From positions 62,001 to 126,000 of the forward strand of contig CAJXNO010000001.1 in the NCBI GenBank assembly GCA_913057205.1: a DNA stretch of 64,000 bases, read 5' to 3'. The first letter of the stretch is position 1, and every line of letters starts with the position of its first letter. Position numbers and translations under genes: made by a program. Below the pieces are notes generated by a model. The model did not search any database. It was not told the origin of the DNA and worked only from the letters and a program-made list of their open reading frames with translations. This stretch comes from an uncultured Flavobacteriales bacterium (GTDB lineage: Bacteria; Bacteroidota; Bacteroidia; Flavobacteriales_G; Salibacteraceae). Positions 4,386 through 5,445 of the stretch are shown in pieces.

Positions 4386-4468
4386 CTGAACAAATCATTC
4401 AGATTCCTATATTCGAGGGTTAACCATTAGGGAGCGGATTGAGGGCCACTTCCTGCAACTTATGAGGG

Positions 4469-5233
4469 ATGTATTTGATGTATGTTGACGAAAGTGGTGA
4501 TTGTGGAAAACTGAATAGCCCAACGCGTTTTTTTATTCTGTCCGCCATTGTTGTTCATGAGCTTCGATGGAGATCGACCCTAGAAGATTTAGTCGATTTC
4601 CGCAGAAAGCTGCGTGATGAAAAAGGGTTGAAGCTACGTGATGAGATTCATAGTTCTGAAATGATCAACCGACCGGGAGAACTACTAAGGATTAAGCGTA
4701 ACGATAGACTGGACATTCTTAAAAAGTGTATCGATTGGCTGAATGCTCGAAATGACTTGAGTCTCTTCTCAGTTGTAATTGACAAAGACAGGTGTAGCAA
4801 AGATGTTTTCGAACTAGCGTGGACCACACTTATTCAAAGGTTCGAGAACACCTTGAATTACAACAATTTTAAAGGGCCTAGAAATCCCGATGATAAAGGC
4901 ATTATTCTAAGCGATAATACAGAGGGATTGAAGCTACGAGCCCTACTCCGAAAGATGAGGCATTATAATACGATTCCGAATCGAGCAGATCTTTACGGGG
5001 ATGGTTTCAGAAACCTAGTGCTCAGGTCAGTAGTGGAAGACCCCGTGTTTAGAGATTCAAAGTATTCCTTTTTGCACCAAATGTGTGATGTCGTAGCCTA
5101 CTTCTGTAGACAGAAGTACGAGCCCAATGCATACGTGAAAAAGAAAGGAGGACATAAGTTCTATGATAGACTTTCATATGTCGCATGTCAGTCCGTAACC
5201 AAAAGGAATAATCTTGGAATTGTTGAGGCATAA
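4469..5233 (+). CDS. DUF3800 domain-containing protein
   Basis: N-terminal YVDESGD signature, internal FSVVIDKD and IILSDNTEG acidic motifs; ATG at 4469. Confidence 0.85.
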   Translation: MYLMYVDESGDCGKLNSPTRFFILSAIVVHELRWRSTLEDLVDFRRKLRDEKGLKLRDEIHSSEMINRPGELLRIKRNDRLDILKKCIDWLNARNDLSLFSVVIDKDRCSKDVFELAWTTLIQRFENTLNYNNFKGPRNPDDKGIILSDNTEGLKLRALLRKMRHYNTIPNRADLYGDGFRNLVLRSVVEDPVFRDSKYSFLHQMCDVVAYFCRQKYEPNAYVKKKGGHKFYDRLSYVACQSVTKRNNLGIVEA

Positions 5234-5254
5234 AAAAAGGTAGCTCTCGCTACC
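5232..5254 (-). terminator. Rho-independent terminator (minus strand)
   Basis: GGTAGC-GAGA-GCTACC followed by TTTTTTT on the minus strand. Confidence 0.85.
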
Positions 5255-5295
5255 GGGTGAATCCTACTGCAGAGACGGACTCTGTGTCAGATTCA
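5232..5295 (-). ncRNA. Predicted small structured RNA convergent with the DUF3800 gene
   Basis: Minus strand reads UGAAUCUGACACAGAGUCCGUCUCUGCAGUAGGAUUCACCCGGUAGCGAGAGCUACCUUUUUUU: P1 UGAAUC/GAUUCA, P2 CAGAG(UCCGU)CUCUG, then a 6-bp GAGA-loop hairpin and U7. A -7-like box TATCTTTG lies just upstream. Confidence 0.62.
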
Positions 5296-5298
5296 AAG

Positions 5299-5306
5299 CA
5301 AAGATA
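5299..5306 (-). promoter_or_regulatory. Bacteroidota-type -7 box (TATCTTTG) for the predicted RNA
   Basis: Matches TAnnTTTG; about 4-10 nt upstream of the P1 stem. No clear -33 TTTG at the canonical spacing. Confidence 0.45.
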
Positions 5307-5445
5307 ATGATTTTCAGACTTTTCCTATATAATCTGAAACGCATATGAAATAGGGAGTTAGTGACAGAGGCTAAGCGCGAATTGCTCAGAAGATCAAAGC
5401 CCATATGCTTCGCTCATACCGCTCGATTCATCACCTTTGTCACCT

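Follow-up and report, generated by a model that had tools for sequence, protein, structure and literature searches.

A DUF3800 gene paired with a convergent small structured RNA whose core also occurs alone in viral contigs

What is a small structured RNA doing at the 3' end of a DUF3800 gene, and do the two belong together? The question is raised by a stretch of 64,000 nt (the window, to whose first base all coordinates refer) from an uncultured Flavobacteriales bacterium (Salibacteraceae; GCA_913057205.1, contig CAJXNO010000001.1, positions 62,001 to 126,000, forward strand). The window bears the marks of a bacteroidotal chromosome, namely thymidine kinase, bifunctional MurF/Alr and TAnnTTTG promoters. 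Within it, an insert of ~1.06 kb (4386 to 5445) separates tdk from murF/alr, and its sole contents, apart from flanks, are the DUF3800 gene and the RNA. An earlier note on this DNA had suggested that the two form a protein/RNA system, with the protein binding or processing the RNA as in a type III toxin-antitoxin or defence module.

The insert is a departure from the usual order of the genus. In ten same-genus genomes in which the junction was read, about 0-40 bp lie between tdk and murF/alr, and no insert is found there. Elsewhere, the immediate upstream neighbours of DUF3800 are diverse; restriction-modification genes make up ~11 of 60 (type IIG/Eco57I, type I HsdS, type ISP and MmeI). In one viral contig with DUF3800 (L206), the copy lies between two ORFs, one repressor-like and the other integrase-like, both named by reading the sequence rather than by a profile. 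Because the site is empty in the genus, restriction genes occur as neighbours and the viral-contig copy adjoins an integrase-like ORF, these comparisons indicate that the DUF3800 gene and its RNA form a sporadic, mobile and horizontally moving module. The ~80% of upstream neighbours that are non-defence genes count against a role in defence. A repeated TCAGATTC upstream of the window gene was considered as an insertion end and rejected, being absent from 20 other loci.

What kind of protein is encoded? The ORF (4469 to 5233, plus strand; 254 aa) is intact, matches PF12686 with 71 bits against a cut-off of 21 (E 2e-19) and opens with the conserved N-terminal MYLMYVDESGD. Residues invariant in homologues include D7, E8, G10, D11, E59, K106, W118, D149, E190, Q204 and D207, and the window protein has every one of the acidic ones (D7, E8, D11, E59, D149, E190 and D207). 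An AlphaFold2 model built with 60 homologues has a pLDDT of 94.7. When it was compared with the PDB by Foldseek, the top 16 matches were RNase HII, H2 or H3 (best E 1.1e-3, probability 1.0); the leading ones are all RNase HII/H2, and the probability across the first eight is 0.94-1.00, with marginal E-values. With this predicted fold and these residues, the protein is probably an RNase HII-like nuclease, the active site of which would lie at the invariant acidic residues. A profile-profile comparison with RNase HII (PF01351) by hhalign is non-significant (E 0.37), so the kinship is one of fold only. DUF3800 resembles RNase HII in its predicted fold and in the D-E pair that ends strand 1 but has GDxG where RNase HII has a GRG motif. 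A PDB search with the protein sequence returned no match, and neither PADLOC nor NCBIfam has a model for the protein. The predicted fold agrees with the RNase H fold reported for DUF3800, in work that also describes DUF3800 proteins encoded with Cas12a2 and type VI-F (PMC10910872, PMC12669027).

The RNA lies on the minus strand, convergent with DUF3800, and is ~60-65 nt long (5232 to 5296, core 5251-5296). Ahead of it is a Bacteroidota -7 promoter box, TATCTTTG (5299 to 5306). P1 is formed by the 5' arm GAATCT (5289 to 5294) and the 3' arm GGATTC (5259 to 5264), and it encloses P2, in which CAGAG (5280 to 5284) and CTCTG (5270 to 5274) pair around the loop TCCGT (5275-5279). Between the helices, the alignment picks out a conserved internal-loop AGTA (5265 to 5268) facing GAA/GAC at 5286-5288, which may be a loop-E-like element; this junction is GAC in the window and GAA in most family members. 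A conserved CCGG linker follows (5253 to 5256), and then an intrinsic terminator, GGTAGC-GAGA-GCTACC-T7 (5232 to 5254), whose U tract shares bases with the stop codon of DUF3800. The minus strand folds at -24.2 kcal/mol (z -3.1 against shuffles), a check that the earlier note had proposed. Its promoter, P1/P2 hairpin and terminator are all where it placed them, the six base pairs that it gave P1 stand if one U-G pair is counted, and its observation that no minus-strand CDS feeds the terminator is confirmed.

Is the association more than local? A DUF3800-first protein search of GTDB genomes yielded 80 loci, in which RNAs were then found by pattern, and the counts given here are those of these samples. 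Among complete loci of at least 42% protein identity, 66 of 67 have the same 44-47-nt core, always convergent and downstream of DUF3800; in the remaining one (L044) the RNA is divergent, with AGUAGGAG. Outside the 67 are a locus of 38% identity with no clear RNA copy (L071), two at contig edges (L031 and L064) and ten of a sister clade (L072-L081). RNA-bearing loci span Bacteroidota, Planctomycetes, Chloroflexi, Proteobacteria, Armatimonadetes, Verrucomicrobia, Acidobacteria and others. The consensus is GRAUCUGAA-P2-AGUAGGAUYC-nnCCGG-terminator, with P1 and P2 of constant length. Two-sided compensatory change in P1 and P2 occupies 148 cells, compared with 55.5 in shuffles, and their covariation score (0.474, against 0.189 when shuffled) is lost on sliding the partners. 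Because the core is convergent at 66 of 67 loci and P1/P2 show compensatory change, the RNA is not a chance feature. The window RNA scores 50 bits (E 4e-11) against the covariance model, in whose building alignment it is itself included.

Motifs around the core indicate that the RNA is transcribed from its own promoter. TAnnTTTG stands at the identical spot ahead of P1 in 12 of 15 Bacteroidota loci (0.1% of shuffles), and a sigma70-like site scoring at least 9/12 lies at the right distance in 52% of 52 non-Bacteroidota loci, compared with 3.6% when shuffled. U-tract terminators follow the core at 64 of the 67 loci. The RNA is single-copy in all 43 genomes that were searched, and RNA distances correlate with protein distances (Mantel r 0.58; permutation maximum 0.15). 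Judged by these sequence comparisons, these RNAs form a genuine and widespread family with near-strict linkage to one DUF3800 clade; the dedicated convergent RNA foreseen in the earlier note is strongly supported, both by homologous RNAs beside other DUF3800 genes and by covariation. Among distant DUF3800 genes (<30% identity; enterobacterial plasmids, Gordonia phages and Rhodococcus plasmids), the window-type RNA is absent in all three examined. Small plasmids of Klebsiella and Escherichia (H1-H21, e.g. NZ_CP031882.1) carry a distant DUF3800 gene, and the one examined has no R1 match.

How does this RNA relate to those previously linked to DUF3800? In 2017, Weinberg and colleagues reportedly described DUF3800-associated RNA motifs, including DUF3800-I (RF02969) and DUF3800-IX (RF02968). 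The role of DUF3800-linked RNAs has, to our knowledge, been open since that first report. Both named motifs are present in Rfam (PMC11701678). The window RNA is like the 2017 motifs in being a structured RNA close to a DUF3800 gene and unlike them in that a scan with the Rfam DUF3800 models, suggested earlier as a check, gave no match. In Rfam 15, no family reaches its gathering score on this RNA, the DUF3800 motif models lack even weak matches in the window or its relatives, and the matches that appear at permissive E-values are chance only. Since those models fail to match, the window RNA differs from every DUF3800-associated RNA that Rfam contains; novelty is judged here on Rfam models alone, and the RNA may equal a 2017 motif that lies outside Rfam. 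In the sister DUF3800 clade (L072-L081 and L118; ~35% identity), the convergent position is taken by another RNA, with a GUGAC/GUCG... hairpin, a CCCCGGUU terminator and a Bacteroidota promoter. That RNA does not match the window-type covariance model, nor any Rfam family in the seven loci scanned. Because another RNA occupies that place in the sister clade, RNA type tracks protein clade.

Does the RNA ever occur without the gene? An RNA-first search of 398 phylum genomes, the first-look filters of which may miss weak RNAs, found five copies, three with DUF3800 and two in genomes lacking any DUF3800. In one of the latter (L112:1501-2137), the RNA faces a convergent DUF559 nuclease gene, the stop codon of which adjoins the same A-run; this nuclease gene lies behind a gene with a C-terminus resembling a type IIG restriction enzyme, and an exchange of partners is possible. 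DUF3800 is therefore not the exclusive partner of the RNA, which stands alone in two bacterial genomes, in one of them convergent with DUF559. A DUF3800-free copy (L113:1029-1400) has no U tract and sits at the 3' end of an apparently truncated ORF behind a HigBA-like pair; it may be the scar of an insertion or deletion.

Most solitary copies come from viral contigs. A first, loose pattern gave mostly chance matches in viral contigs and was replaced by stricter ones with a scrambled control: ATCTGAAN{15,18}AGTAGGATNNNNCCGG had 21 matches (0 for the scrambled control), and a second, P1-based pattern had 20. The RNA core is found in ~30 viral contigs, with DUF3800 encoded only in L206 and L117; ~27 have the core with no DUF3800 nearby, although short loci could conceal one farther along the contig. 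In 26 distinct solo copies taken with the window, 94% of cells are paired and P2 keeps its covariation, with 51 cells showing two-sided change against 13.5 when shuffled; P2 lay outside the search pattern. Solo copies mostly occupy same-strand intergenic gaps within phage operons, at heterogeneous positions, near genes for terminase, NinG, endolysin/lysis or integrase, and three independent cases (L305, L253/L314 and L299) adjoin tRNA genes or sit in large-phage tRNA arrays. Most phage copies have no terminator, though they keep the CCGG linker, and a few are preceded by a promoter of their own. Among the viral copies there may be prophage remnants that have a separate function. One contig (L313) carries the identical solo RNA twice, at 2536 and 3214, the two facing opposite ways, probably an assembly inverted repeat or a terminal repeat, and three others (L298, L301 and L306) have an identical solo RNA and flanks in common, which suggests a conserved site in one phage group. 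Annotated phages and plasmids, searched by BLAST with the phage copies and with the short RNA, yielded nothing useful. The loose pattern also picked out hairpins in permuted betaproteobacterial tmRNAs (L195, L214 and L158; 27 bits), rejected as probable chance; this hairpin lies ahead of the tag region and retains the CUAGU/A loop and CCGG.

What might the pair do? The samples show an asymmetry: the DUF3800 of this clade was never seen without an RNA, and the RNA was often seen without DUF3800, mainly in phages. Because of this asymmetry, the pair has the signature of an antitoxin or inhibitor that phages mimic. An RNA that restrains the protein, and that phages gain by carrying, should leave such a pattern, by analogy with phiTE pseudo-ToxI and Racrs. 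We see an even chance that the locus is a type III-like, yet not type III, module in which an RNA-inhibited nuclease is countered by phage-borne RNA decoys. Free DUF3800 would be an RNase HII-like nuclease that harms the cell or the phage. The convergent ~65-nt RNA, made from its own promoter, would fold into the P1/P2 hairpin with its conserved internal loop and CCGG linker and bind DUF3800 as its cognate inhibitor, an RNA antitoxin. Phage shut-off or degradation of host RNA would then lower the RNA and free the nuclease, and a phage carrying a solitary RNA core would keep the enzyme inhibited. We infer the binding, the inhibition, the nuclease activity, the trigger and the counter-defence alike. 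Binding of the RNA by DUF3800, in the manner of a toxin-antitoxin or defence module, was the idea first put forward for this locus; it seems the best inference and is strengthened by the phage solos, which lay beyond the reach of the earlier note. The single-copy, convergent order counts against the inhibitor model, as it departs from known RNA-antitoxin systems. So do the two bacterial genomes in which the RNA stands without DUF3800, the viral copies that may be prophage remnants, the lack of a PADLOC model for the protein and a kinship with RNase HII that shows in the fold only.

Much of the same evidence can be read in the opposite sense, with the RNA as an activating cofactor or scaffold for the DUF3800 nuclease and the phage solos as sequestering decoys, in the style of Racrs acting on Cas proteins. 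Near-strict linkage, the distance correlation and the phage solos fit this equally well, and it gains from the DUF3800 proteins encoded with Cas12a2 and type VI-F (PMC10910872, PMC12669027). Yet the RNA is a hairpin plus terminator throughout, with P1/P2 of fixed length and no unpaired or variable segment that could guide, and phage solos retain the full core rather than a partial mimic. The cofactor-plus-decoy model fits almost as well as the inhibitor model; we nevertheless consider it unlikely, if well worth keeping in view. Solos, most of them terminator-less, lie within phage operons on the same strand, with genes for terminase, NinG, lysis and tRNAs close by, and this invites a further reading: the core could be an independent regulatory or structural RNA of phages, of which DUF3800 modules acquired a copy to sense or compete with phage RNA. 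This is improbable in our judgement, as the phage positions are heterogeneous, the RNA is rare in genome samples and the constant presence of an RNA beside the DUF3800 of this clade is left unexplained. The convergent order and the U tract overlapping the stop codon would also suit a device, antisense or convergent-terminator, with no task beyond regulating the 3' end of the DUF3800 mRNA, but the overlap is only ~7 nt, and the core sequence, its covariation and the DUF3800-free phage copies would serve nothing in it; we regard such a device as very improbable. Guide-RNA and antisense readings were set aside, given that there is no guide segment and that phage solos exist.

Returning to the inhibitor model, the clade offers a gene and an RNA packed into a single 1-kb insert, with a clear candidate for a binding partner, and the natural phage copies make the hypothesis of defence and counter-defence directly testable. 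If the model is true, RNase HII-like enzymes join the RNA-controlled toxins, and phage RNA mimicry reaches past CRISPR repeats and ToxI. Whether the whole is a new RNA-protein anti-phage system, with an RNase HII-derived nuclease checked by a convergent RNA, clade-specific RNAs and neutralising phage decoys, some in large-phage tRNA arrays, is a tentative proposal towards which we are a little more doubtful than confident.

How does the pair compare with known systems? Type III toxin-antitoxin systems (PMC5086642) were recognised here by an operon in which tandem RNA repeats and an attenuating terminator precede the toxin, by a pseudoknot and by an endoribonuclease of ToxN/AbiQ fold. The pair is like ToxIN and CptIN in combining a nuclease, here a predicted one, with a small RNA, and in having phage RNA mimics, putative ones here, of which phiTE pseudo-ToxI is the type III example (PMC3475682). 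It is unlike them in that its RNA is a single core, without tandem repeats, convergent and with its own promoter instead of upstream in the operon, and in that the fold predicted for DUF3800 is RNase HII-like, not ToxN/AbiQ; a non-exhaustive search for a pseudoknot predicted only nested hairpins. Assignment to type III, as first suggested, therefore fails. The DUF3800 proteins of Cas12a2 and type VI-F share the Pfam family and the reported RNase H fold, whereas the window protein is stand-alone, 254 aa long and provided with its own RNA, and an analysis not aimed at them brought up neither a CRISPR array nor a cas gene. Racr RNA anti-CRISPRs are solitary copies of a defence system's RNA in phage genomes (PMC10651486). 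The solitary copies in ~27 viral contigs without DUF3800 resemble them, with the difference that the window RNA is not a CRISPR repeat, that its partner is DUF3800 and that the inhibition would be of a putative RNase HII-like nuclease.
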